Shown here: positions 5,591 through 63,443 of the stretch, one piece after another
Layout of the letters: each line of letters starts with the position of its first letter
Position numbering within the stretch: the stretch's first letter is position 1
NCBI RefSeq assembly: GCF_029227915.1
Contig: NC_079883.1
Location: 24,800,001-24,864,000, forward strand
DNA length: 64,000 nucleotides
Source: Hydractinia symbiolongicarpus
Lineage: Eukaryota; Cnidaria; Hydrozoa; Anthoathecata; Hydractiniidae
Direction: 5' to 3'
Position numbers and translations under genes: made by a program
The notes under the pieces: generated by a model
Seen by the model: only the letters and a program-made list of their open reading frames with translations
What the model was told of the DNA's origin: nothing
Databases searched by the model: none

Positions 5591-11110
<5,520 letters not shown>

Positions 11111-12660
11111 TGCACTTCTTACGTTCTTACCCAATATAAAGAAAAGCTTTTCACAATGAAGACTATCTTTAGAACAGAAACTATTTTCAAAAAGAAGTAA
11201 TCAAAAATTTAAAGTTTTTGGCTGACCGCAATTAACTATTTATGTTTCTTATTACGTGTTAGATCATGAATTTCATTTGTTCGTGTGTTTTTTGCTTAAA
11301 TTAGCACGATAATAGTAAGCAATTTCGTTACAAGAAATTTTTTCTATAAAAGTGATTGTTTTTATCCACATACGTTTTTGCTTACATATGTTACGCAGGT
11401 AACGTATATCAATTAACGCAAATCGGGTTTTAATAAAGCGGCAGTGTTAATAAGCAACATCTTAAAAATGCAAAATGTTAAAAAATATATGAATAAAAAC
11501 ACAACAACCTGGATCAAAATTACAAATTCAGATAGGCAAATCTCTGTTGAATTTTTTTTCAATTATATTACTACATGTGTGATAGAAGAAAATTGTTCGG
11601 ATGATTTTAAATTCATTTATCTTGTGAGAGTTGTCATTTTGTTTTGTACCGATGATCTGGAACCTAACATCAATACTGACGCAGCTGTACTCATAAATAA
11701 AAAAACTACTTTAGGCATATTGACAAAAAGTATACACGCAAATTATACATGCAATTTTGCTATTACATTTATTATTTCTTCAATGAATCATTTCTAGTTT
11801 TAAATGCTGTTACTCATACCATGGATTTATATTTATTATGAGCAACACTAGCGACAAGATAAACTCAAAACTATGTTGCAAATCCATGCAACCAAACTGA
11901 ATGACACTGAAGTAATTCAGGGGAAGGTAAGGCAAGGCAATTAAGCAAAAAATTATTATCGTTCTGAAAATTTATTTTCTTGCATGTATACAAACAAGTG
12001 CGGGGACCACCAGGCAACTTTTCCTTGGTTTAAATAGAATGCGTTATTATGTCCATTATTAGCAATCACGCGCGTGGACCTTCCCCACTGTGTTACTTTC
12101 GCCGATACAAATTAGTCACCATCGTCGAGAACTCGTCTACGTAGCGACTGGTGGAGATATTTATCTTAAACAAAAATGGTTGAGTGAGTAAAAATGATCT
12201 TCCTAATCCAAAAGAGCTCCGTCGTTATGACCTCGCAAAAACTATACATAAGATGGTACCTAATATGCGAACCAAAATTCAACTCCATACAGAAAACAGA
12301 ATAATGTCAAGAAAAATATCGCGCCCTAACTGACTGATGACGGACCGGCCTCAGGCGATCAATAACTATACATTGTTTTCTTTTGATGTTTGTTTACTGA
12401 TTATTATGTTTTCAACTTTTTGAAACTTGTCTTTTTACCACAACGAGACAAACTTATTCCTGCCCCGTGTTTGAACGCGCCATTGATCTCACGTTCAGAA
12501 TACTTGCGTACGAGCAAAAAAAATATTTAAAAAATGGGTTTTCGACAGCATGTCGGGTACATGTTGTAAGAAAATATCAAAAAACTTTTTGGGGGGTTAA
12601 CTTCCCCTCTAAAAATCAATTTATGAATTATTTACGATTCAAAATATCGATTTCTTAAAA
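11111..12660. other. 5' flank of gene A, no further gene seen
   Basis: Upstream region of gene A, AT-rich. Much of it is shared with the flank of gene B (39631-41330). At 11258-11265 the sequence GTTAGATC is the intact target site that is duplicated around the TIR element at 39786-40542 in copy B. A 118-codon open stretch at 11444-11797 is not preserved in copy B and is probably chance. Confidence 0.55.
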
Positions 12661-25600: not shown

Positions 25601-25805
25601 TTTGAAATAACTTTTTTCAGGATTAATTTGAAAAACAGACAACCTTCTTCACATCGGTTTTCTTTTGTCAGTTGATAAACAACTTGTTTCCATGAGATAC
25701 TGTGCGCACATGGTAAACCGGGGGTAAAATTAGATTATTTTAACCGTAACGGCCGAAAACGGCGCTGTAGCATACCTTACTTGTATTTGGATTGGAGTCG
25801 TACTA

Positions 25806-25889
25806 TTTTTCACTCAGTTTTAAATTCGCGCAACTTAAATTCGCGCATCCTAAGGTGGAGATATTCGCTCAGTTTTATATTCGCGCACC
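25806..25889. repeat. Left subterminal repeats of the pogo-like element
   Basis: Three TTCGCGC motifs (25825, 25840, 25880) and two copies of a block TTTTTCACTCAGTTTTAAAT / GATATTCGCTCAGTTTTATA. These are candidate transposase binding sites in addition to the very short TIR. Confidence 0.6.
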
Positions 25890-26095
25890 CCAAAATGTCT
25901 ACTCTCGTTAAAAACTCTGCATATTGTTCTAAAACGATGGTCGAAATGTCTTTCAATTGAAATTTATTCGTCAAACTAAAGCAAACGTTGCAAATCAAAG
26001 GAGATTTTAAAAGCTATTAATTACAGTACAGTTTGGTAGATCTTTTCTTTTTCTTCAAACAGTTCTTTTCAACAGCATAAAAAATAATACAAAAA

Positions 26096-27508
26096 TTATT
26101 CGAAAGGGTCCTCTTTGTGAACTTGCTCTCTAAGTGCATCGACGATTCCCGATCTGCGCCAACCGTTTATTATGATTTCTTTTCTTGTACGAATATGATC
26201 ATAGTATTTGGTGACCCATTTAGCATGTAGAGGCTTGAGAATGCTGATTTTCAAGTCGACAGAAACATTTTCTGGTGCAATTCCATTAGCGATCTGGGCT
26301 TGCACTTGTTCAGCATACCACGTCTGTGCTTGGTCACGTAAAAATGATTTACATGATCGATTGACAGTAAGGTCAAGTGGTTGGAAGTAATTTGTCATAT
26401 TATGAGGAACTGGAACCATCTTTCCATGATGTTTTTCGACTAGATCTTTGACCTTGTCAGTCCATTGTGCTTTGAATACATCTGCAATCAATAGCCATTT
26501 CTTTGATGAACGAAAACCAAGCTCTTTTTTCTTCTTTTGGACGTAAGGTACGAGAACCTTGTTGATGAGCTCAATTGATTTTTCTTCGTTTGACCAATGA
26601 TTAATGCTATGTGTGATATTGAACTCTTCGGGAAAGTCGAATGTAGGATGGCAGCGGGCTGTTTTACCCTGGTAGATTATTTGCATCGGTAGGAAAACTC
26701 CAGAGAGACTGATTGAGAAAGTCCCTGTTACTTGACGATAATCAGCAGAGTTAGCTATCGGTACTAGCTTTTCGTTTTTCTTATCCATTGTATACTTGCT
26801 GAGTAAAATAAATGGCAATGGTGTCTGGTCAATGTTTATCACTAGATCGTCAGGTATATCGTGAGCATCAACGAGTTCTTTAATAGAACGATGAAAAGAA
26901 AATCCCATCTCTTCCAAAAAACCGGGAGACACGGGTTGTTTTGCTGTTGTTGCACGTCGCTTTGTAAAACCAATCCGTCGGAAAATTGATTGACACCAAG
27001 AAAAATCCAAGTTTATTTGACCTCCATTTTTCTTCAACAGCGAACGGTCATTTGCCAAGACAATCCCTTTTCCAATGGCTATAGCAATATTGTAATTCAC
27101 TGCGCATCCAGCTTTTCTCATGTTTTTGATCATCTCAAGAACTTTTTCATCGATTTCGGCTGGAAGAAGGGGTTTAGCACCACGATGCTTTCTTGGCAGT
27201 TCTCTCAATTCCCCTTGATCTGTTTTGGCTTCTTTGTAGCTTTTGACGATACCTTGAACCGTAGATTCAGGGACTCCAAACTTTCTTGCAGCAGGTCGTA
27301 TGCCATAAACTATAGCCCATTTCCCAATCTCTGCACGCTGCAGCTTGTCATAATCGCTATATTTTTGCCTTTTCTTTTTTGGTTGGGGCTCGCTGATCAT
27401 CTGCAACTGTTTTTGAACCTCATTTTGTTCAGAATCTCCTAGACCACTAGCTTGTGCACTCTCTGAGACAGTATCTTCAATTTTCTTAAAATACTTAAAA
27501 AGTGCCAT
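26096..27508 (-). CDS. Pogo-like (CENP-B/Tigger-type) DDE transposase, DD35D
   Basis: 470 aa from the ATG at 27508 (MALFKYFKK), preferred over an upstream non-ATG extension. It would cut and join the transposon ends in the nucleus. Residues about 45-105 are basic and then form a helix-turn-helix of CENP-B/psq type (YDKLQRAEIGKWA…AARKFGVPESTVQGIV). A second DNA-binding-like region precedes the catalytic core. Core acidic residues: D227 in NIDQTPLPF, D343 in LLIADVFKAQW and D379 in NYFQPLDLTVNR, with 35 residues between the last two. GTFSISLSG and IYQGKT are typical of the core of invertebrate pogo-like transposases. The third residue is D rather than E, as in pogo/Tigger relatives. The frame is intact, of normal family length. 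It is divergent from the HIRAN gene, with 166 bp between start codons. Confidence 0.88.
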   Translation of the reverse strand: MALFKYFKKIEDTVSESAQASGLGDSEQNEVQKQLQMISEPQPKKKRQKYSDYDKLQRAEIGKWAIVYGIRPAARKFGVPESTVQGIVKSYKEAKTDQGELRELPRKHRGAKPLLPAEIDEKVLEMIKNMRKAGCAVNYNIAIAIGKGIVLANDRSLLKKNGGQINLDFSWCQSIFRRIGFTKRRATTAKQPVSPGFLEEMGFSFHRSIKELVDAHDIPDDLVINIDQTPLPFILLSKYTMDKKNEKLVPIANSADYRQVTGTFSISLSGVFLPMQIIYQGKTARCHPTFDFPEEFNITHSINHWSNEEKSIELINKVLVPYVQKKKKELGFRSSKKWLLIADVFKAQWTDKVKDLVEKHHGKMVPVPHNMTNYFQPLDLTVNRSCKSFLRDQAQTWYAEQVQAQIANGIAPENVSVDLKISILKPLHAKWVTKYYDHIRTRKEIIINGWRRSGIVDALREQVHKEDPFE

Positions 27509-27674
27509 GATTACATTTTCAACGGAGATCTGTTTTAGAAAGACAAAACCATAACACAAACATATCAATGCAATGACATCTTACGTTCGAAAAGAAATTT
27601 TCGTTCGATTTTGCAATGCAATTGCATCCTCGGATGAAAACAATCACGTTGCATTTTGACAAGTGATTTTAAAA
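27509..27674. promoter_or_regulatory. Divergent promoter region between transposase and HIRAN gene
   Basis: The 166 bp separating the two start codons must hold both promoters unless the transcripts begin in other exons. It contains CGTTCGAAAAG / TTTTCGTTCG elements and a repeated GCAATGCAATTGCAT-type motif near 27613. No clear TATA box stands out. Shared control of both genes is inferred from this arrangement. Confidence 0.4.
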
Positions 27675-28430
27675 ATGGCTGAGGGAAACTGCGTCGGTTG
27701 TCAAGCTATGACAAAATATCTCTGCTTAAAGTGTGGTGACTTTGCCTGTAACAGAAGTTTAAATTGTTCTGTGCCAACATCTGAAAGTTACCCTGGGTGG
27801 ACAGAATGCAAAGTCGCACTGTGCATGAAATGTGAGAAAGAAGAACATGCCTCTTTTTATCAGGATCACCATCTTGAAGATGGAAAAGATTACAATAAAA
27901 GCGAGGCTCAAGACCAAAGTGAAGTTGAAGGAGCACAGGAACTCGAAGACTTACATTTGACTTCAGATGATCATGATCTTGTTATTGATTGTGCTTCCAG
28001 AGGATTTCACGAGTACCGAAAGATTTGGTTACCAAAGTTAGGACAAAGGCTTACCGTGAAACGGGATAAAGCTAACCTTTTTGACCCATATTCCATAGGA
28101 CTATACTATCAAATCAAAGGAAAGATCGAGAAACTTTCAATTGTAGGGCATCTTCCACGAGAAATTTCCCGCTTTTGCAAATTCTACCTTGAATACAACG
28201 GTGTGATCAATGCAACAGTACGAATGACAAAGTTCCGCAGAAGTCCTTTGCCTCAAGGGGGCTTGGAAATACCAATTAAATTATGTGTTGGAAAAGGAGA
28301 TTCAAGTAACGAAGTCTTCCGAAAAATGAAAGGGTTCATGCTCGAAAATTACCTTGAGCCAGAGAAAATCCCGCTGGAGATAAAGGTCGAGGAGGAAGAC
28401 GAAGACGAAGAAGAAGAGGTTTCATTGTAA
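27675..28430 (+). CDS. HIRAN-domain protein with N-terminal Cys cluster, second gene of the pogo-like element
   Basis: 251 aa, ATG at 27675 (MAEGNCVGC); the frame upstream has only a GTG. Residues 6-58 hold C6-x2-C9, C17-x2-C20, C25, C31, C45, C50-x2-C53 and H58, a probable zinc-binding module of B-box/treble-clef look. An acidic linker (about 62-98) follows. Residues about 100-205 match the HIRAN fold: RGFHEYR, GQRLTVKRDKANLFDPYSIGLYY, and IVGHLPREISRF with the following beta region. The C-terminus is acidic (EEEDEDEEEEV). HIRAN domains of HLTF and Rad5-type proteins bind DNA 3' ends. Here the domain stands alone, without helicase or RING. A role at transposon ends, in repair after excision, or in regulating transposition is inference. 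It lies inside the TIRs and has no intron. Confidence 0.8.
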   Translation: MAEGNCVGCQAMTKYLCLKCGDFACNRSLNCSVPTSESYPGWTECKVALCMKCEKEEHASFYQDHHLEDGKDYNKSEAQDQSEVEGAQELEDLHLTSDDHDLVIDCASRGFHEYRKIWLPKLGQRLTVKRDKANLFDPYSIGLYYQIKGKIEKLSIVGHLPREISRFCKFYLEYNGVINATVRMTKFRRSPLPQGGLEIPIKLCVGKGDSSNEVFRKMKGFMLENYLEPEKIPLEIKVEEEDEDEEEEVSL

Positions 28431-28571
28431 TTTTAATTTTATTTAAAACAGAAAAGAAGTCACTATACCAGCTGAAAACTATCTCAAATTTTTACTTACA
28501 AAAACTGTTACTAAATTACATATCAATTTACGGTTTCTTAAGCGACTTCCAAGTTTGTGATAGGAAAGCTA

Positions 28572-28645
28572 TTCGCGCGGATTATTTTTCGCTCAGTCTT
28601 AATTTCGCGCACCTTACGTCTGCGCGAATTCTAGTACAGCGCGAA
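28572..28645. repeat. Right subterminal repeats of the pogo-like element
   Basis: Four TTCGCGC motifs: two direct (28572, 28604) and two reversed (28622, 28639). It includes a block ATTTTTCGCTCAGTCTTAAT that repeats the left-end blocks in the same orientation. Confidence 0.6.
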
Positions 28646-28659
28646 TTTTAATACAAGTA

Positions 28660-30180
28660 AAGTAAATGACAAATGGACCCCCTGTTTTCTCATTTGGCGG
28701 CTTACTTATTTTTTTAGTAAATTTTAGCGTACGGCCACGTCATAAGAATGTGACCCGTGATTTCCGTGTCGTGGACTCACAGTTTTACTCACGCAAGGGA
28801 ATTAATATATAAGATAAAGTAAGTTTACTTTTTTTATGTTTTCTGCTTCCACAACACAGCTACAATCGCGTGCACCAGTCAAATTACCAATTCTATTATT
28901 TTTATATTTATTATCAGATTTGTTAACGCATAAAGATGTTATATAAAAAAAAAAGACACAACGTGATAATTTTTTAATCAAAGCCCTATTGTTTAAACAA
29001 AAAATGCGGAGGAGGCGTGTCACTGGCTTCCAGTTATTTTTGAGCGTTTCTCGTAAAACGAGTAATTACCGATTCCTTCAGTATAGAATCCTGACAATTT
29101 TTCTTGGAAAAGATTAAGAAACTAATTACGTTTTCCACTGAATTCCGCTAAAGTTTATTATTTAAATAGCTATTAGGGGTTTATCCCCACCTTCTAAATA
29201 ATTTATCGGCATAATTTTCAAAAGAATCAGCTAGCTAGCTAGCTAGCTTGCTATACCTTGAGGAGGACTAACCACATAGAATTGCTAGACATTTAGAAAA
29301 TTTCTCCTCACAGCTATCAGTTTTGACTTGTTAGTATTTAGACCACATTCTAGTGATGTAAGCTCTGAACTCTACTTCTTCGGATCAGATAAGTAAAATA
29401 TGCACAGACAAATAATTAATTTCACACAATTTATTTAGAACACGCGATTTAAAACAAACTGTAGCAATATTAGAAAACCAATCAGCATTACCAGGAACCT
29501 TGTATTGAAGTGTCGAACCACGATGTATTTAAAACGAACATGTATGTATATGCGAACCAAGTTACTGATAAACAAAATAAATTCCACAAGTCGTGCCAGA
29601 TGAAAATATCGATGCACTGTGCATTTACTCATCGATACACGCCAGTCATATTGAATTTTATTATGTTTTGGACAAAAGTATTGTCTTGAAAATCCATTTT
29701 GAGTAGTAATAACTTAATCGAGCTCTACAAACATTTTCAAGATATATGCAAAATACCACACTTAAACAGTTATAAATTGACATTGAAATGGATTTACAAT
29801 ATTTCATTGAAACAAAATGAACAGTGTGACATTCAGGAAATTTAGGAAATTGGTTGGTAATATTTGGTAACCATGTCAACAATAAGAATATGTACATACC
29901 TTTAATATTTTATTCTTATGAAAATGTTATTAGTATGTACTGTATCAAAGCTTGGTATACACTTTTCCGATCAGAACCATGGACATTCGGCTTTTTTTAC
30001 ATGATCAGCCTGAAATGTTCTTTTTTTTTTATATTTTCAGTGTTTTAAATTTTTTTTAAATTTATATTCTTGTACGCACATCACAAATATTTGTAATGTA
30101 ATATCATTCTTACAAGTATATAAGCCTATTGATTCGATAAAGCATTTTGGGCGTGTGTGTGTTTGTGCTTGTTTTCAGGA
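28660..30180. other. No recognised gene
   Basis: AT-rich intergenic sequence. A short AGCT run lies near 29230-29248. Open frames are short and lack domains. It ends where the Helitron array begins. Confidence 0.5.
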
Positions 30181-35768: not shown

Positions 35769-38700
35769 TTAGTTCAGACTGAAGAGAATTTTTTTATACA
35801 ATTTCGCGTAAATATCTGCACATGATTCACCATTGTTATTAGGCAGGTATCCGTCAGCGGTCCAAGCTTCACCATAATGCATTCTCAGCTCCTGTTCTTT
35901 GTAAACAGTGTGACTTGTTGCATTAAAGATGAGGTACGGAGAGTTGGCGTTGTATCCTGGTACGGTAAAGAACCCGAAACCTTCATGATATTCCATAGAT
36001 GGGTAAAGTAGGTTGTTTTGATCATCTGTAATGACAGCCGCAACATTTCCTACAACAAAGGGGCGCGTATACTGACATCCCCACTTTGTTAGCGGTGTGT
36101 CTTCTACGCACGTTACACCAGGTCCACCAACATGCACCAATTTTATGTCAGTCATTATTGCGTCATGTTGTATTTTAAATGTTCCAAACTCGTTTGCACG
36201 TGCTCCAAAGCAGACATTGCGTTTCAATAAAATCCATTCACCTAAGAAATATTTTTATACTACCAACGTCATCCTTTATTTTTATTTGTTTAAATGACTA
36301 TGAAAAGTTGATCCTGAACTGTCATTTTATTTTACATTATTTTATTTGTTCTTTTGTTGTTGTTTTTTGTGTTTATTTTTAGTTTCTCCATTCTTAAGAG
36401 AATAGGAAAGTGCTTGAAAGAAATTGAAAAACAATCCTGAAACTACAAACTGAATTCGCCAAATGCTCCTATATTATGGCACCCTTATGCATTTCTATAT
36501 ATTTTACACGCACAGGTCTCGCCATATTTCCTAAAACCTTATAAAATGCACGTATTCATATGAGAACCGAACCGGCCGTAAATAGAATATGAGCTCGCCG
36601 TCATTAACAGACCCAAATACAATATTAACTATTTCTTAAGACTGTATTAAAAATATTGCTTGAAATTAAAGTATTAATCCAGTATGCAAGGTCTTAACCA
36701 CCGAAGCGATAGTTATCGGTATGGACTGAATTAAATGTTCGAGACATGATGGGTAGATAAAATATTCTCTATACTAGGAATAATTTTAATGTCAGATATT
36801 GTTTCGAGCAGAATTTTTACATCTGATTCACCAATTAAATTATCGCGAAAAAGGTTTAAAAATAAATTCTTACGAAATCTATAAATTTTCTGGAATTTTT
36901 GAACGGAAACTCGAAAAGGTTGCTTCATAGGAGACTTACATAAGTAGCAGCAAATATCGACAAATATATGCTAAACGATGGAATTTAGCAAATAATTTTA
37001 TGGTCGGTTATCATTCGAGACATGATTTTTAATTGTCCTGTAAGAGATTAGGGTTAAACTAAGAAATTTAAAAGTAAAGCACCAAATTGATAAGTTATTG
37101 AAATCAAAAACACTGGAGACTTGCGACAAACATACCGGTTGTGACCAAATAGTGAACCTGTGAATATAAAGATCTTAAGAAATGATTCCGGTGTATAAAT
37201 TGAGGACCAGCCTAAAAATCATCTTTAAAACCAAGTGAGCGACAGCGTTATAACACCGATGGGGGAGAAGCACATTTTTCATCAAGCATTTAGTTTTCAA
37301 AAATCTGTTGTCAAATGTTTTTTCGAAAGGCACTTAACTTAATCAACTCGGAGTGTATTTCAACTCTAATTGTTTTTTCGTAGTTCTTACCCGAACAGGT
37401 AAATTCACATTTGTAGCCTTTATCATCACATGTATCCACACATTTCCCGAAGTTGCATGGTTTTCTTTCTTCACAAACAGGGCCGACCTAAATAAAAAAA
37501 ATAAATTTGCGTACCCCAGACATATTTTTACATTACTTAGTTACTAATTACATAAACTTATAAAAACCTTGTTTTATGGACATCTAGAGTGTGTTTTTCG
37601 CGCACCTAATTTAGAAACGTTTAAGACGGTTCATTTTGTTCTTTGCTTAGAAAGTTACAGATTTTGCCTCTTTAACACATTTGTTAAAATACTTCTTTGG
37701 TTCCGCTTGTAACCATTTTCTCATTTTTCAATCTTATAACATGTAGGTCTTGCTTATTCCATGTAAAATTAAAAATCTTTCAAATAAGATTTCCTAAAGC
37801 TATGGAAAAATCTTTTGTCTTGCCTCATCGTTACCATATATCATTTTTGTTCTTGATTTTTACAAAAAAACTCCCGTGCATGACAGATATATTTTTTTAG
37901 CAGGGCAAATGACTAGCATAAATATTTTCCAAAGCGTAGTAATTATAAATTATAAGCAGTCATATGACCAACGTGTGTCAAAACTTTATCACCGGTATTA
38001 CCTCATCTTAAAGCAAAATGCTCTGGGAACGAGGTTTGTTTTTGAAGTGGAAAGACCAAGCACTAAAAATTCAATTGGACGGCTCACAGGTATAAAACGT
38101 TAACAAGTGAATAGTTACGTGCTTTCTCTTCTTCTTATCATTAAAGTTTAATCAATCAGTTTTGAATTGACCGACGTTAAAAATTTCTCGTAAGTGTTTT
38201 TACAGAAATGCTGTGTGTACTTTTAGGTTCGGTAACCATATTTGCTATGTCATCACACCTCTTGCTATAGCGACTCATCAGTGCTCAAGAAAAAGATAGA
38301 AAATCTTATTTATTAATCAATGATTATTCCTTTATTTTTTATGAAGTTGAATATTGATATTTGAATATTGAATATTGATGTTTTTATGGAATTCTCCACG
38401 TCGCTTGATTATCATCTAGTGCATACAAGTTGTTTCTTTAAACAACGTTATACTTTTTTAACAAAAACTATTTTATGAGAACAATAAGGCTAGGAACTGC
38501 TAAACCAAACAACAACAAAAACTATGTCAAGTATGAAGTTTTTCTGAAAATGATTTTCAGGGCAGGATTTTTTGTGTGTTACAATTTTGTGAAATGTGTA
38601 TAAACCTAGATTCGAGATCAAAAAAATTAAAATGTGCTGTTAACTTGATGTTCAGAATATAAGAACACGCTTGGAATACTTGCAGCCTGAGTGGAATATG

Positions 38701-39630
38701 TATACAATTTAAGATCTTTAAATCACCGAGAAAAAAAAGCTCTTAATAGGAAGATATAGGAAGAAACCGAATAAAAAGTGAGAAAAGCGGAAAATAAGAT
38801 AAACCGTATAATTTCGATTATTTACTTTGTTTATTATATTTTTTTGGTACTTGAGACTACCCCCATAGGGTTAAGTTTAAGGGTTTGGGGATAGCTAAAA
38901 ATGCTAGAAGTTTTATAAATCATTTTCGATTTCCAAAATCTTTCGCTTTCGCCTTTACAATGATTTTGTCAATGACCTCGTTCCAAGCGCCTGTTGTTGC
39001 TTTTTTATGTCTGGTCGGCGAGACGAAAATGTCCGTCTCCTCATTCAGACATAAATGAGAAACAGCAGGCCCTCGAAAGCAGGTTGTATTGCTGCAACAT
39101 ATTTTTCTTAATAAGATGAAACTATGGATATTGAAATTTCGTAAATCAGTTTGTCTATCAGGTATATATAAAATTAAAGCAGTTTTTTACAAAATCTATG
39201 GTGCCCAGTGACTATATTTTTATCAAACGCATTACTTTCTTCCAAATGAACGAATAAGGCCTTAAAAGCAGTCTAAACGACTCACGTTCGTTGCATTCTC
39301 ATTGGTTTCATAGTGTGTCCATCCATTTTCCTTTTGTAAGTTACTTCCAGTGTCAGTTCTAGTGGAATGGTGTATTCGGCATTGTGAGTGATGAAACATG
39401 TAGCTAAATGATTTGCACTTTGGATATTGCATGCATATAATCAAACACTTTTTCAGTTCGACGTTTTTAACCAAAGAATATGTCGTATTTATCAGAAGAA
39501 AATTGTTGAATACAACATCAAAGACAGCATTAAACTTGTTGCATTCAGACAATCGTAATATATATCCCTTACTAATGCATACGATACATATCAACAGTGT
39601 TGAAAATAATAGCCCCATTTTTGATGCCAT
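35769..39630 (-). CDS. Secreted PAN/Apple + EGF-like protein, gene B (3 exons)
   Basis: Exons on the minus strand: 39630-39286, 37487-37391 and 36241-35769, predicted 304 aa. Splice sites and phases are the same as in gene A. The signal peptide (MASKMGLLFSTLLICIVCIS) and the PAN cysteines are kept, and exon 1 is nearly identical to gene A. The EGF-like module has all six cysteines (C-x5-C-x4-C-x3-C-x6-C-x3-C). The C-terminal domain is conserved (CFGARANEFG, TKWGC, VAAVITDDQNN, VPGYNANSPYLIF, SCADIYAKLY). The protein ends in KKILFSLN, seven residues beyond gene A, through a shifted stop. No disrupting mutation is seen, so this is probably functional and the best reference copy in the window. 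The function of the family is unknown to me. Confidence 0.82.
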
Positions 39631-39785
39631 TGCACTTCTTACGTTCTTACCCAATATGAAGAAAAGCTTTTCACAATGAAGACTGTCTTTAAAACAGAAA
39701 CTGTTTACAAAAAGAAGTAATCAAAAAATTAAAGTTTTTGGCTGAACGGAATTAACTATTTATGTTTCTTATTACGTGTTAGATC

Positions 39786-50087: not shown

Positions 50088-53000
50088 CTAAGTCTTCTTC
50101 TTGCGCTTCGGATTGATGATGACGTAACGCTCTGTAGTTTTTCTTTGTCGTTTCGGGTAGGTTTTTGCACCGTTCTTGTGGTTTTTCTTTTCGTATAGAT
50201 CTTCTTCTTTGTTATGGCCATCATTCGGTTTAGATTGTTGGTTCTCATCAAAATTCGCATTGCTTGAGCAGGTACAAGGGTCTGCCCTGTTTCGCGCGTT
50301 AGAAACACTCGATTGCTTACCCTTCGCAGATCTATACAGTTTCGCGTGTCCGTTTGCTCGTAGAAACGTTTTTCCTTCCTTGTTTCGAACCATGATGCTT
50401 CGTTTGTATACTTTAATGATGGTGAAGACTTCCTTTAACCAGGGCGGTGAAAGTTTGTTTTTGTTGTCGGTAAGATTTTTCAACAATACCTTTTGTCCGA
50501 CTTCAAAAGTGACAGTTTTTGCCTTGCGGTTCTGGTCGGTGTTTTCCTTGGATTTCTGTTTGTGCTTTTCATCATTCTTGTTTACTTCTATATCCAATTC
50601 ACTGTTGCTTTTCACAAGTTGACTAACGTCAGGAAGATCATTCGTTAGCGGTCTACCGAACATCAGTGTTGCAGGTGGAACTTTAGTTACGGTATGAGGT
50701 GTGGTTCGGTAACTCAAAAGGAATGTGTCAAGAGTTTTACGCCAATCCTTTCCAGTGATGACAGCAGTTTGATTGTGTCGCTTCAATGTGCGGTTAAATC
50801 TCTCAACCTCACCATTAGCTTGTGGCCAGTATGGAGTTGTACGCCGGTGTTTTATACCATGTTGTTGAAGGTATCGGCTGAATTTGAAGGACGTGAATTG
50901 TGAACCGTTGTCAGTTACAATTGTTTTTGGATAACCAAAAATACTAAAGGTTTGCTTCATAACATTTATTATGTTTTGCACACCAGTGTTCTTGATAGAA
51001 GAAACTATTGGGTATCTGGATCTGTAATCAATCAAAACTAACAGGTTGTCACCAGAGGGATAAGGGCCTTGAATGTCCATTGCAATAGTGTTCCAAGGTT
51101 GTTTGGGAATTTCTGTTGGTTGTGACGGTTCATGCCTGGTGGTGGAGGGTGCAGTTACTTGGCAGGCATGACAGGTAAGTGTTAGATCTTCGATTTGTTT
51201 GTTCATCAGCGGCCACCAAACTTTTTCACGTAATAGTAGTTTAGTTTTGGTTGTTCCTTGATGCGTAGCATGTGCTATCTGCAACATTTTCTGTTGTAGA
51301 GTGCTTGGGATGACAATTCGTTGTCCTTTGAGTAAAATGTTATTCACAAAGGATAACTCATGCTTTGCATGTCTGTATGGATTCAAAGCAGAATCTTTTG
51401 GCCAGGCCTTCGAGTTAATGGCTTTGGTGACTTTTTGAAGAATGATGTCTTTTGCAGTTTCATCTTGTATCTCTTCGATATTGCAGCTTTTAGGTACTGC
51501 TTCTGCTGCTGTAAAGTTGATAAAGGATTCAATTGAGTCGTCAGTTTCTCCTTCACTGTCTGTACAAACAGGGTCTCTTGATAGTATGTCAGCAGCATTT
51601 TTGGCACCAGGAATGTATTTTAATTTGTAGTTATACCCTTGTATGCGAAGAAGCCATCTCTGGATCCTCGGTGGTGGAGATGTGGAAGTTGGTGACATTA
51701 CGTGCAAAAGACTCTTGTGATCAGTGGTGATATCGAAGTCACGGTCATATATGAAAAAGTGAAAGTGTGTGCAGCCAAAGGCAACTGCAAGAGCTTCTCG
51801 TTCTGTTTGTGAGTATCTCTGTTCAACAGGTGTTAATGCTCTACTTCCATATGCTACCGGCTTGAAGTTTCCATCTTTCTGTTTCTGTGTAAGTATGGCA
51901 CCAAGACCATACGGACTTGCATCAACAATTATGTCTGTTTCCGCCTCAGGATTGTAAAATGCCATAGTTTCAGAAGTGCAAAGTTTTTCTTTGAGTAAAT
52001 CAAATGATTTCTGTTCAAGATCTGTCCATATGAATGGTGTATTTTTCTTGGTGAGTTTCCTCAGTGGAGCTGATAATGTACTGTAGTCTTTGATGAACTG
52101 ACTGCAATAATTTACTAGACCAAGAAAGGATCTGACTTCTGTCGATGTTGTTGGTGTTTTGAATTTGTTGACTGCAGTGACTTTGGAAGGGTCTGGAGAT
52201 ATGCCATCTGTTGTGAGAGTATATCCACTAAATAAAATTTTATTCTTGCTAAACTCACATTTTTCTGGGTTGACACGCAGGCCATTCTCAGAAAGATTAC
52301 GAAGAACCTTATCGAGATTGCGGTCATGCTCTGCTTGTGTTTTTCCCCAGATAAAAATATCATCAGAGATGTTCTTTGCCCCTTCACAATCAGCAATTAC
52401 CATTTCAATATTTTTCTGAAAATGTTCAAAGGCACTTGAAATACCATATATGAGACGCTTGTATCTGAAAATTCCTTTATGGGTAATGAAGGCAGTAATG
52501 TTTCTGCTTTCTTCGGCTAACTCAATTTGATGGTAGCCTTCTCGCAGGTCAATTTTTGAGAAGACAGTGGCTCCATTTAATAATGGTAGGATTTCTTCCA
52601 GTTTTGGAATAGGATGCTTCTCTCTGATAATGGCAGTGTTTGCTCTGCGCATGTCCACACACAATCTAATTTTGCCATTTTTCTTAGGTACTGCGCCAAT
52701 TGGTGAAACCCACGAAGTTGGTCCATTAACTGGCTCAATGATATCTAATTTCAGCAGTCTATCGAGCTCTGCTTCAACTTTCTTTCTGGTGTGAAACGGC
52801 AGTCTCCTAGTTGGTTGCTGGATGGGGGTGACATCTGGATCAATATGGAGTTTCTGTTTGAAGTTGTTAAGTTTTCCCATTCCTTTGAATACCTTGTTGT
52901 TTTTGTTGAGGACTTGTTCTGTTGATACTGGTATGCCTTTTGACAGACTTCTGCTACCTAACTGGAATGTTCTATGGTTGATGGGTGTTGTAGCTGGTCC

Positions 53001-54188
53001 AATTCGTAATAGATCTAGCTGCTCAGCTGTTTTGTGACCAAGTAAATTGCCTCCTTGACCAGGTATTACGTAGAATTTTGCTAGTATTTTATGGTGATTT
53101 GCTGCAACTGTAGCTTTGAAGGTACCAGTGATTGGGAGCTTCTTAGTAGCATTGTATGGGTAGATTCGGGCATTGGATTTCTGAAGCTGGATGTTGCTGA
53201 ATAAGCGTTTATAGGTTCGAAAATCGATGATATTTGTTGTGCTTCCAGAATCAATGATAGCAGTCATTTCGCTATTGTTTACTAGAACGGGGAAGTTATT
53301 TGACTTCGTAGTGTTCATCTTGTATAGGTAGATATCCTCATCTTCGTCATCAGAGTTTTCATGGTTGGTTTGATGAACTTGCTGTTTATTTTTGGTGCGG
53401 CACATTTTTGCAAAATGTCCTTTAATACCACATTTGTTACATGTTTTATCTCTTGATCTCCGACATTCATGACTTTTGTGGTTCTTCATACCACAGCGAC
53501 CACATTCTGGTTTGTTGAATGATTTGGTTGGGTTGTTCCGATGTGGTGGTGCATTGTGTTTCCTATGGCTACGATGAGGTGGTCTACGCCCATGTAGTTT
53601 GTTGATTTGTTCAGAGCTTTCTTCTTCAGTGTCATGTTGTGTTTGTTTACCATTAGCTATTTCTTTGTTTTGGTGTTCTGCAGATTCAAAAAGTCGTCCA
53701 AGGTCCTGTGTTTTCTGGAGATTCAAATCAGTTTCCATAAGTAAACGTTTGCGGAATTTAATATTCGATGTTTTTGCTATGACCATGTCTCGGATTTCAT
53801 TGTCAGTTTCTGATCCATATTCACAATATAAGGAAAGTTGTCGTAGACGGGTAATGAATTGATCCGTACTTTCCCCTACTTGTTGTGAGGCTTGGTGAAA
53901 TTTATGCCTTTCGAAAGGTATGTTCTTTTTGACTGAAAAATGTTCATCAAATTTATGGAGGGCTTCTTCAAATGTTGTTCCAGGATCAGAGAAAGTTTCA
54001 AATATTTCCTGGCATTTAGGTCCAATCATGTGGAGTAAAATTGCCCTCTTTCTTTCATCATCCCTAACTCCACTTGCTAGTATGTAGTATTTAAGACTGG
54101 TCTGCCATTTCGTCCATCGTTGACCAACTGAAGTCGGTTCTCCATTTGGGTCAAAGGGTGGTATGGCTGGAAGTTGCAAAACGGACAT
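50088..54188 (-). CDS. Gypsy Gag-Pol polyprotein
   Basis: 1366 aa from the ATG at 54188 (MSVLQLPAIPPF); the frame runs a little further upstream without an ATG. Gag occupies about 1-280, with two CCHC knuckles (C229, C232, H237, C242 and C250, C253, H258, C263). Aspartic protease: IIDSGSTTN, D313, with DSG instead of DTG. RT: KIDLREGYHQI (D547) and a catalytic box ISDDIF (D609, D610), where Ile replaces the usual Tyr. RNase H: D756 in IIVDASPYG, and TTDHKSL. Integrase: zinc region H973, H976, C1006, C1009; core D1038, D1093, E1129 (DD35E; TDNGSQF, PQANGEVERF). A basic C-terminal tail (KRQRKTTERY…KRKKKT) follows. Gag and Pol are in one frame with no shift. It makes the virus-like particle and carries out reverse transcription and integration. 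There is no env. Confidence 0.95.
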   Translation of the reverse strand: MSVLQLPAIPPFDPNGEPTSVGQRWTKWQTSLKYYILASGVRDDERKRAILLHMIGPKCQEIFETFSDPGTTFEEALHKFDEHFSVKKNIPFERHKFHQASQQVGESTDQFITRLRQLSLYCEYGSETDNEIRDMVIAKTSNIKFRKRLLMETDLNLQKTQDLGRLFESAEHQNKEIANGKQTQHDTEEESSEQINKLHGRRPPHRSHRKHNAPPHRNNPTKSFNKPECGRCGMKNHKSHECRRSRDKTCNKCGIKGHFAKMCRTKNKQQVHQTNHENSDDEDEDIYLYKMNTTKSNNFPVLVNNSEMTAIIDSGSTTNIIDFRTYKRLFSNIQLQKSNARIYPYNATKKLPITGTFKATVAANHHKILAKFYVIPGQGGNLLGHKTAEQLDLLRIGPATTPINHRTFQLGSRSLSKGIPVSTEQVLNKNNKVFKGMGKLNNFKQKLHIDPDVTPIQQPTRRLPFHTRKKVEAELDRLLKLDIIEPVNGPTSWVSPIGAVPKKNGKIRLCVDMRRANTAIIREKHPIPKLEEILPLLNGATVFSKIDLREGYHQIELAEESRNITAFITHKGIFRYKRLIYGISSAFEHFQKNIEMVIADCEGAKNISDDIFIWGKTQAEHDRNLDKVLRNLSENGLRVNPEKCEFSKNKILFSGYTLTTDGISPDPSKVTAVNKFKTPTTSTEVRSFLGLVNYCSQFIKDYSTLSAPLRKLTKKNTPFIWTDLEQKSFDLLKEKLCTSETMAFYNPEAETDIIVDASPYGLGAILTQKQKDGNFKPVAYGSRALTPVEQRYSQTEREALAVAFGCTHFHFFIYDRDFDITTDHKSLLHVMSPTSTSPPPRIQRWLLRIQGYNYKLKYIPGAKNAADILSRDPVCTDSEGETDDSIESFINFTAAEAVPKSCNIEEIQDETAKDIILQKVTKAINSKAWPKDSALNPYRHAKHELSFVNNILLKGQRIVIPSTLQQKMLQIAHATHQGTTKTKLLLREKVWWPLMNKQIEDLTLTCHACQVTAPSTTRHEPSQPTEIPKQPWNTIAMDIQGPYPSGDNLLVLIDYRSRYPIVSSIKNTGVQNIINVMKQTFSIFGYPKTIVTDNGSQFTSFKFSRYLQQHGIKHRRTTPYWPQANGEVERFNRTLKRHNQTAVITGKDWRKTLDTFLLSYRTTPHTVTKVPPATLMFGRPLTNDLPDVSQLVKSNSELDIEVNKNDEKHKQKSKENTDQNRKAKTVTFEVGQKVLLKNLTDNKNKLSPPWLKEVFTIIKVYKRSIMVRNKEGKTFLRANGHAKLYRSAKGKQSSVSNARNRADPCTCSSNANFDENQQSKPNDGHNKEEDLYEKKNHKNGAKTYPKRQRKTTERYVIINPKRKKKT

Positions 54189-54380
54189 GCTAGCTGCACA
54201 GAAATGCTCAGAGCGCGCGCACAAGTATAACTATCGCTTGAAATTACAAAGGACAGCCTAGCAAAGTTTCCTTTCGCACAGTAAGAGTCAACAAAATTTG
54301 TTGTTTTGATTCGAAAATTCACACGTCTTGTTTCACGCGAGATTGCTTTGTAATTATGAAATATACCTCTCCATGAGTTC

Positions 54381-54568: not shown

Positions 54569-55069
54569 GGCAGTTTTTGCCGACATGAACTATATTAAAT
54601 AGGCTGCAAAGATGAATTTTACAGTGACGTTGTTTGTTTTCATAGACTGCTGAAAGCAGACGGCAGGCCAAAATACACATGCTTAACTGGAAACAGGCCC
54701 ATTTTGAACTTTATTTCGAGAGTGAAGCATCGTTTTAATTTGATTTTCACATGCAGTTTAAATTTTGCGGACATTTGGAAATGTGTTAATTTGGCAGGGA
54801 GACACAATTTTTTAAACTACTGAACACTTTCCATAGAATTGATGATAAAGTGACAAAATAGCTAGCTGTAATGATAATACGGCAGTAGTGTGTAGAGGTG
54901 CAACCCTCTAAAGCATATGCACTTATGCAAAATCTCCCCCATTAATAGAATTTTTTTTAAATGCCCATAGCACAACAAAATTAATTGCACAATACAAAAC
55001 AATAATAAAAATAGATAGACACAAAGCACAGTAAGTAAATAAGCAATTCAACCCGGATAAATGTGCACA

Positions 55070-56075
<1,006 letters not shown>

Positions 56076-56084
56076 CGGGGCAAA

Positions 56085-56760
56085 AAATAACAGCAGTAAA
56101 TTTTTAGCCCTCTCCATGTTATTATGTTGTACTTATTTCTCAGCCATCTTAAGCCTAATTGTTTTTAATTTTTAAGTATATTTGGCATAGGCGAGTCAGG
56201 ACATTTTAATCTCAGCCAGGGAAAATAAAAATTGACTGGACACTCACTATACAAAATGCTTAAATTCTATTTGTTTTATGTTATTTTTGTTGCACATTTG
56301 CTTTTAGATTTTTGTAAAACAGTTTAATGAGCACATTTCATAAGCTTATACTCAATGCAGTATATTAGCATAGCTAAGTATCGTTTCTTTTAGCATTGCT
56401 GTTAATTACTCTTTGATGTTTTTTTATCATAGCTAAGTAAGATTTTTTGGTCCACGACAACAAGTCTACTATAGGTCACCTAGCTCTTCTTGGCTAAGGG
56501 GGAACTTAACGATATATTTATCAAAATCTGTTGGCTCATTAAGTACTGCTAGTATATTTATGTTTTATGTGGTAAAATCCTTTTCAACCTATGACTCTAA
56601 ATAGAATTTTTATTGACGTTTGTTTTTGTTTTTCTCTTTCAGGACCTTGCTATCAACTGGAAAAATGAATGAGTCTAAATTATGCTAACACGTGCAGTTA
56701 ATTACAAACTATCTAAGTTTTGCGAACATTTGTTAACACTGATTGGATTTTTGTTCAAAC
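56085..56760. repeat. Segmental duplication, block E2
   Basis: Matches 32245-32520 and 33790-34080 with the intervening part deleted. No gene is seen. Confidence 0.7.
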
Positions 56761-61660: not shown

Positions 61661-63443
61661 TTATTTGTAACACAATTTCGCATAAATATCGGCACATGAT
61701 GTACCATTGTTATTAGCCGGTTGTCCAGTAGAGGCCCAAGCTTCACCATAATGGATTCTCAGCTCCTGTTCCTTGTGAACAGTGTAACTTGTTGCGTTAT
61801 AGATGAGGTACGAAGAGTTGGCATTGTATCCTGGAACATTGAAGAATCCGTGCCTTATATGATACTTCATAGATGGGTAAAGTGTGTTGTTTTGTTCATC
61901 TGTAATGACAGCCGCAACATTTTCTACAACAAAACCGTGGCCATAATCACATCCCCACTTTGTTGGCGGTGTGTCTTCAATGCACGTTAGACCAGGTCCA
62001 CCGACATGTACCAATTTTATGCCAGTCATTACTGCGTCATGTGTTAATTTAAATGTTCCAAACTGGTTTGCACGTGCTCCAAAGCAGACATTGCGTTTCA
62101 ATAAAATCCATTCACCTAAGAAATGTTTTCATACTAATAATGATTCCTCTTATAAAAAGTAGATCCTGAAGTGCCATTTCATTTTACATTATCTTGTTTG
62201 TTCTTTTGTCTTTAAAATTTGAATGAATATAAAAAACATTTCTGAAACTACAAACTGAATTCAACAAATGCTGCTATATAATATCCTTATACATTTCTAT
62301 ATATTTTGCAGTGGTCTCGCCATATTTCAGAGAACCCTAAAAAATGCATGTGTTTTTATAAGAACCGAGCAAGCCATAAATAAAATATTGGCTCGCCAAC
62401 ATTAACAGCCTCAAATGCATTATTAACTATTTCTTCAAACTGTATTAAAAAGTATTGAGATTAAAGTACTAACCCAGTATGCAAGGTCTGAACCACCCAG
62501 GGGATAGTTATCGGTATGGACTGAATAAAATGTTCAAGACATGATGGGTAGATAATTTTTTTTCTACACTAGAAATAATTTTATTGTCAGACAATGTTTC
62601 TAGCAGAATATTTACATCTCATTCACCAATTAAATTATCGCAGCAAAGGTTTAAAAATAAATTCTTGTAAAATCTCTAAAATTTCGGGAACTTTCAAACA
62701 GGAACTGGAAAAGAGTGTTTTCGCGTTCAGGTAATTAATTATCTTACGACAAAAAACATTTTTTCATAGGAGAATTATCTAACTTTCAAAAATATTCACT
62801 TTTAAATTTTTTTATTTCAGTGTTTAGGAAATATGGACAGTATTCTCATCTTGGGTAATAGGTGGTTCGTGTATTCTTATTTTAAATATTTCCAGGAAGC
62901 AAATATTGACAAAAAATATGCAGAACGAGGTAATTTAGCAAATATTATTGTGGTCGGTTTCCATTTGAGACATGATTTTTAATTGTCTTGTAAGAAATTA
63001 GGGTTAAATTAAGGAATTTAAAACTAAAACACCAAATTAATGAGCTTTTGAAATCAAAAACCACTGGAGATGACTTGCGACAAACATACCGGTTGTGTAC
63101 CAAATAGTGAAACCTGTGAAAATAAAAAACTTAAGAAATGATTCCGGTGTATAAATTGAGGACCAGCCTAAAAATCATCTTTAAAACCAAGTAAGCGACA
63201 GCGTTATAACACCGATGGGGGAGAAGCACATTTTTCATCAAGCATTTAGTTTTCAAAAATCTGTTGTCAAATGTTTTTTCGAAAGGCACTTAACTTAATC
63301 AACTCGGAGTGTATTTCAACTCTAATTGTTTTTTCGTAGTTCTTACCCGAACAGGTATATTCACATTTGTAGCCTTTATCATCACATGTATCCACACATT
63401 TCCCGAAGTTGCATGGCTTTCTTTCTTCACAAACAGGGCCGAC
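61661..63443 (-). CDS. Secreted PAN/Apple + EGF-like protein, gene C (5' exon outside window)
   Basis: Exon 2 (63443-63347, 97 nt) and exon 3 (62115-61661) have the same phase and splice signals as genes A and B. Exon 2 encodes the complete six-cysteine EGF-like module (VGPVCEERKPCNFGKC…CEYTCSG). Exon 3 encodes the conserved C-terminal domain (CFGARANQFG, TKWGC, VAAVITDEQNN, VPGYNANSSYLIY, SCADIYAKLCYK). The extra Cys in KLCYK near the end is peculiar to this copy. The PAN exon should lie to the right of 64000, displaced by a transposon starting at 63521. No stop or frameshift is seen in what is visible. Confidence 0.78.

Follow-up and report, generated by a model that had tools for sequence, protein, structure and literature searches.

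Why should a pogo-like transposon carry a gene for a HIRAN-domain protein? The question is raised by a 64,000-nucleotide stretch of the Hydractinia symbiolongicarpus genome (NC_079883.1, positions 24,800,001 to 24,864,000; hereafter the window), in which a transposase and a HIRAN protein are divergently encoded as a single unit between TA-flanked terminal repeats. The best explanation, to which we give a probability of roughly 0.7, is that this unit is an autonomous-looking pogo-type transposon that has two genes and moves by cut-and-paste, and whose HIRAN protein is a partner of the transposase and binds 3′-OH DNA ends, the molecular roles being ones that we infer. The two genes are found together again in other, deeply diverged families of elements, and have diverged in step.

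The element and its two genes

Comparison of copies and a scan of their ends placed the element at positions 25775-28662, with TA on each side (25773-25774 and 28663-28664). Its features, in order, are:

25773..25774, no strand: left TA, presumed target-site duplication (comparison of copies)
25775..25787, + strand: left terminal inverted repeat (TIR) CCTTACTTGTATT (comparison of copies)
25825..25886, + strand: left subterminal repeats TTCGCGC at 25825, 25840 and 25880
26096..27508, − strand: transposase gene, 470 amino acids (aa), DDE_1, DD35D (D227, D343, D379), Mos1-like fold
27488..27502, − strand: N-terminal LFKYF (transposase aa 3-7), like a PCNA-interacting protein (PIP) box without its Gln
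27509..27674, no strand: 166-bp region between both start codons, presumably a bidirectional promoter
27675..28430, + strand: HIRAN partner gene, 251 aa
27690..27833, + strand: N-terminal Cys-rich module, zf-HIT-like; conserved C6, C9, C17, C20, C25, C31, C50 and C53
27963..28364, + strand: HIRAN domain, about aa 97-230
28572..28645, no single strand: right subterminal repeats TTCGCGC at 28572(+), 28604(+), 28622(-) and 28639(-)
28650..28662, − strand: right TIR, differing from the family at one base (A instead of G at 28661; end scan)
28663..28664, no strand: right TA, presumed target-site duplication (end scan)

A preliminary description of this DNA had taken TA-CTTGTATT as the termini. This sequence does recur in the copies, but it is internal to the repeat. 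Beyond it the copies still match (left TACCTTACTTGTATT, right AATACAAGTAAGGTA, a perfect inverted repeat) and the flanking DNA differs farther out, so that the true ends lie 5 bp farther out at (TA)CCTTACTTGTATT. The right end of the window copy reads AATACAAGTAAAG, with one mismatch. Seven TTCGCGC subterminal repeats are present in the window family, and the motif was also found close to the ends of three diverged loci (L024, L025 and L026). The sequence TTCGCGCA occurs eight times in the window, five of them within the element, against 0.7 expected in the window.

The window's own genome (480.9 Mb) was searched with the element at the DNA level. Seven copies matched it over its full length with 97.6-100% identity, interrupted by small internal gaps in L005 and L006. 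Most remaining copies of the window family were truncated or internally deleted. Both ends were complete in 15 of the 23 loci scanned (L001-L023, comprising 22 window-family loci and L022), and each of these 15 is bordered by TA on both sides; the other eight have an end that is absent, changed outside CTTGTATT or too diverged. The flanks were distinct among complete copies except in L017-L019, whose common flanks, like L011 and L012, indicate duplicated loci. The element is thus multi-copy with recurrent ends. Start-to-stop open reading frames (ORFs) of full length for both genes were found in the window copy only, within its family. L002 is nearly intact (transposase frame open, HIRAN protein of 240 aa); in L009 the transposase is full and the HIRAN gene internally deleted. 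The window family has many copies in which both ends are present and one gene or both are incomplete, the pattern to be expected if non-autonomous derivatives are mobilised in trans.

Each gene is one open frame, in agreement with the two intact, intronless and divergent ORFs first reported. The window transposase matched DDE_1 in Pfam with 28.9 bits (cut-off 22). Across 49 aligned rows, D227 and D379 were invariant and D343 was present in at least 90%, with 35 residues between the last two, which bears out the proposed DD35D triad. An AlphaFold model (pLDDT, the predicted local distance difference test, 86) was nearest to Mos1 mariner in Foldseek, followed by SETMAR and Sleeping Beauty (E 2e-7 to 2e-4); this predicted fold supports membership of the IS630-Tc1-mariner group. 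The pogo-type assignment was made because of DDE_1, DD35D and the TA flanks, together with the Mos1-like fold (features as in PMC7386202). The label "CENP-B type" is weak, since CENP-B_N scored 13.1 bits, below the Pfam cut-off of 21.2. The N-terminal region of the window transposase is helical with weak helix-turn-helix (HTH) matches; HTH_Tnp_Tc5 was matched in 4 of the 49 transposase rows, with 49.2 bits in L058.

Recurrence and co-inheritance of the gene pair

Profile searches of the same genome covered the best 150 of 549 HIRAN candidates and the best 90 of 931 transposase candidates, the latter giving 85 loci once merged. A listed HIRAN match lay within 3 kb of 67 of the 85 transposase loci, a figure that holds for the best-scoring loci with their many near-identical copies, and all 67 pairs were head-to-head. 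The chance of a HIRAN neighbour was about 0.0027 per locus, or about 0.2 across the 85. Among the matches listed, 37 transposase matches were stop-free over at least 400 residues, all with HIRAN adjoining; 19 of them belong to one family (540-aa frame) and 7 to another (551-aa frame), near-identical. With at least 37 such matches, some families in the genome look young. In addition, one HIRAN family with 22 same-score, stop-free matches (G000:C1:5034651 and 21 other places) and 19 near-identical stop-free transposases among the matches listed looks recently active.

Within the window family, each copy retaining at least 80% of the transposase (L001-L009) has HIRAN sequence. Eight diverged loci were picked by DNA similarity, all except L022 being listed through transposase-part matches only; seven carry transposase and HIRAN or remnants of both, the exception being L026, a truncated transposase. 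HIRAN match alone was used to pick fifteen loci outside the window family, by hand across score groups rather than at random, and 13 of these 15 had a transposase or its remnant adjoining; L059, L060, L065 and L067 hold short remnants. The contrary outcome named at the outset, the same ends without a HIRAN gene and HIRAN genes at unrelated loci, is the reverse of what the window family, the 85 transposase loci and the 15 HIRAN-selected loci gave. Because the pair recurs head-to-head in many related transposons, the HIRAN protein probably takes part in their movement.

In the transposase tree, all transposases then known to be HIRAN-linked fell into a single, fully supported clade of 29 rows, and later loci extended the pairing to other branches. 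Restriction of HIRAN to the clade of the window's transposase was rejected, since L053, L054, L061-L063, L065 and L066 pair HIRAN with transposases nearest other branches. For the same reason the solo L025 (minus strand, outside the clade, no HIRAN seen) is uninformative about its branch. Scans of viral contigs for both proteins and of prokaryote genome contigs for HIRAN confirmed no relatives.

Seven other pairs, from six families (L057 and L066 being one), lie inside near-perfect inverted repeats that start with TA (lengths are those of the whole units):

L053: repeat TACCTTAAGGGAACTTATTTTGGCGGG, 3481 bp
L054: repeat TACCTTAAGGGAAGAAATTTTCGCGGGAA, 3259 bp
L055: repeat TACTTTAATTGGAGAAA, 3230 bp
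L057: repeat TACCTTAATCGGACAAATTTTCGCGCGGA, 3447 bp
L058: repeat TACCGTCATTCTTCTAATTTAATCC, 2886 bp
L063: repeat TACCTTATCGGTAAAAAAAAAGTCGG, 3075 bp
L066: repeat with one mismatch, 3395 bp

At L024 and L025 one end each reads TACCTTAATGCCATTAATTTTC, and the opposite ends are one or two bases off. The repeats of these families indicate that a CCTTA-type end is common in the group, L058 differing most, and G/C-rich repeats similar to TTCGCGC were found near the ends of several relatives. DDE_1 was above its cut-off in all four relative transposases scanned. The L058 pair, with HTH_Tnp_Tc5 and TACCGTC ends, is much more divergent (transposase and HIRAN each 23% identical to those of the window) and represents a pairing that either split off earlier from this one or arose independently.

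The divergence of the two proteins was also compared. Their pairwise identities, taken partly from related elements and broken copies, were correlated (Mantel r 0.81 with 10 elements and 0.92 with 14; 0 of 5000 shuffles in each case), and their trees share the main groups. Five of the 14 elements came from public contigs, where HIRAN and transposase matches were paired indirectly, by equal contig size. Five equal-size contigs were common to the HIRAN and transposase match lists (120 matches shown in each) against 0.9 expected, and for contigs above 10 kb two were seen against 0.008 expected. Comparison of the window with L022 gave proportions of nonsynonymous and synonymous differences (pN/pS) of 0.186/0.642 in the transposase and 0.223/0.751 in HIRAN, indicating that both genes were under purifying selection between the window family and its nearest relative in the genome. 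Recurrence of the pair and its correlated divergence support the earlier suggestion that HIRAN is a dedicated partner of the pogo-like transposase, made on the analogy of Harbinger or En/Spm.

A possible role at DNA ends, and its alternatives

The window protein has no significant match to Pfam HIRAN (PF08797). Its HIRAN fold was recognised by structure and is that of the HLTF HIRAN domain, which upholds the identity first given to it. Pfam HIRAN was matched by 36 of 99 aligned rows at E 0.01; L053 and L054 scored 32.4 and 26.1 bits (cut-off 24.7), L062 fell below with 20.3, and L058 and L063 had no match. Sequence searches of the PDB with the window proteins or with both profiles returned nothing meaningful. 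The term "stand-alone HIRAN" was right in that Pfam found no SNF2 motor or RING in the 251-aa protein, but incomplete, as a Cys-rich N-terminal module is also present. This module occurs in only about 30 of the 99 HIRAN rows, some of which are fragments, and zf-HIT was matched in 7.

Of about 98 HIRAN rows, paired with HLTF through one alignment, 88, 89 and 95 retain the equivalents of HLTF N91, D94 and H110, respectively. The putative pocket of the window protein comprises N134, D137 and H159. D94 and H110 are residues that we take to line the HLTF pocket in addition to R71, N90 and N91. A pocket conserved to this extent would be compatible with 3′-end handling. The HLTF HIRAN domain binds 3′-OH ends and N90A-N91A disrupts its function (PMC11237066), and changing R71 to E prevents 3′-OH end binding (PMC11366124).

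Putative motifs around HIRAN, PIP-like and SUMO-interacting motif (SIM)-like, point to replication. Canonical PIP boxes are present in the HIRANs of L053 and L054 (QKDIRNFF and QKDIRSFF), 2 of the 13 own-genome HIRANs checked, and DIR-type variants in six more. SIM-like ends were found in 25 of 52 HIRAN tails against 5.1 expected, and 21 of 41 long transposase rows have [LIVM]xx[FY]F within their first 30 aa against 1.4 expected by shuffling; as the rows are related, these motif counts are descriptive. The window has its PIP-like motif at the transposase N-terminus and none in HIRAN, and the L053 type has a PIP box in HIRAN, a frame of 269-272 aa by the ORF tool and of 222 aa stop-to-stop in L053.

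Transposases of this type leave 3′-OH ends on the element and a donor gap with 3′ overhangs. In the mechanism we propose, the transposase would bind the ends and the G/C-rich subterminal repeats and would cut and join the DNA, and the HIRAN protein would be its dedicated partner, gripping the 3′-OH ends exposed in transposition. Candidate 3′ ends are those of the element, those of the donor gap and the nascent ends of stalled or reversed forks; the HIRAN protein may hold or steer them, and PCNA or SUMO contacts could be made via the transposase N-terminus or the HIRAN tail. A more tentative extension, which we rate somewhat short of even odds, is that an old and diverse pogo-like lineage encodes its own fork-recognition factor. 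A 3′-end-gripping HIRAN with PCNA/SUMO-binding-like motifs would then couple cut-and-paste to replication forks or donor-gap repair, mimicking the end recognition of HLTF/Rad5.

Several observations weigh against a 3′-end-binding partner or against the pairing on which it is built. Of 94 rows, 91 carry His where HLTF has R71. N91 is replaced by Pro in L058, and in the decayed L022 the equivalents of D94 and H110 are Tyr and Gln. The PIP-like motif of the window transposase lacks the Gln, the window HIRAN has neither PIP nor SIM, and a canonical PIP is missing from 11 of the 13 own-genome HIRANs checked. For 18 of the 85 transposase loci no HIRAN is listed; stops occur in 12 of these, and the other six match over 173-327 residues only. 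L056 and L064 have no transposase in the stretch read; L062, a member of L056's family, does have one. Purifying selection is weak among young copies (pooled pN/pS 0.013/0.024 for the transposase and 0.007/0.018 for HIRAN). Finally, the congruence of phylogenies that had been looked for is partial: the Mantel correlations and the main groups agree with it, but P0017 and P0020 are placed differently in the two trees.

The His at the R71 place almost throughout would also suit a HIRAN protein that is a transposition partner of another kind, a sequence-binding or nuclear-import subunit on the terminal or subterminal repeats, with a fold that serves protein or duplex contacts and not 3′ ends. The Cys-rich N-terminal module could read DNA, and there is a precedent in the Myb-like protein of Harbinger, which binds TIRs and the transposase (PMC9179366). 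However, the transposase has its own helical N-terminus with weak HTH matches, and the Cys module is confined to a minority of rows while the pocket residues are widely kept; we regard this explanation as unlikely. A low probability is likewise given to HIRAN as an accessory that aids the element in the host cell, through repair choice, checkpoint or silencing, and is co-selected while dispensable for the reaction itself. The PIP-like and SIM-like tails of relatives suggest recruitment to host replication or repair factors, but HIRAN beside all 37 long stop-free transposase matches is more than dispensable cargo predicts, 26 of the 37 coming from two near-identical families. That a transposon and a host HIRAN gene lie side by side by chance, a reading for which nothing is left except the missing Pfam match of the window protein, was rejected as extremely improbable in view of the multi-copy unit, the seven other repeat-bounded pairs and HIRAN at 67 of 85 loci against about 0.2 expected.

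Neighbouring features and comparison with known systems

Elsewhere in the window, three similar ORFs of 154-161 aa (5591-6055, 35769-36254, 61661-62128 (-); no Pfam match in the two scanned) and two very similar ORFs (10727-11200, 39262-39720 (-); PAN domain in the first) suggest local duplication at about 29-30 kb spacing. An uninterrupted 1380-aa frame at 50088-54230 (-) has reverse transcriptase, RNase H and integrase and is like a long terminal repeat (LTR) retrotransposon. Two long short-repeat arrays (7900-8930 and 55050-56100) read as SVCL or DRQT in open frames. At two of the HIRAN-selected loci, ORFs (L060 4971-6257 and L056 4419-5141) contain an LGNTCY..SILQCF stretch like that of ubiquitin hydrolases, a domain named by eye.

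The way in which pogo-like elements connect transposition with replication and repair is unclear, and a co-inherited HIRAN makes the link testable with one gene. The Drosophila POGO transposase is a PCNA interactor with a PIP box, a motif whose functional relevance was still unclear in a 2017 review (PMC5371812); the elements described here offer two proteins that can be tested apart. With a HIRAN partner of the transposase, the few accessory factors known for transposons would come to include a protein that recognises DNA ends.

Two-gene DNA transposons are known, and HIRAN as the second protein is apparently new: a HIRAN partner of a eukaryotic transposon was not found in the available parts of the literature searched, outside which lie Repbase and most subscription journals, nor in those of two pogo surveys. 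Like members of the pogo superfamily (PMC7386202, PMC7325037), the element has a DDE_1 DD35D transposase, TA flanks, short terminal repeats and a length inside the 1.2-5.2 kb range, its fold being nearest Mos1 mariner. It differs in the second, divergent HIRAN gene, where pogo ORFs are described as encoding transposases, and in most families seen here the ends begin with CCTTA. CENP-B, POGZ and other genes are derived from pogo-like transposases according to the same surveys. The ciliate TBE and Tec elements are also of Tc1/mariner type with extra ORFs, including a zinc-finger protein in TBE, but they have DD34E transposases and different extra genes, with no HIRAN mentioned in the part of the source available (PMC7325037). 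Harbinger and ISL2EU likewise combine a transposase with a second protein, and the phylogenies of the Harbinger transposase and Myb-like protein are congruent (PMC9179366); the transposase superfamily is another one, and the second protein is Myb-like in Harbinger and HIRAN here. With HLTF/Rad5 the partner protein has in common the HIRAN fold, the N91, D94 and H110 equivalents and, in some relatives, PCNA- or SUMO-binding-like motifs; unlike them, it is transposon-encoded, has no SNF2 motor or RING, carries His for R71 and, in the window's clade, possesses a Cys-rich module.

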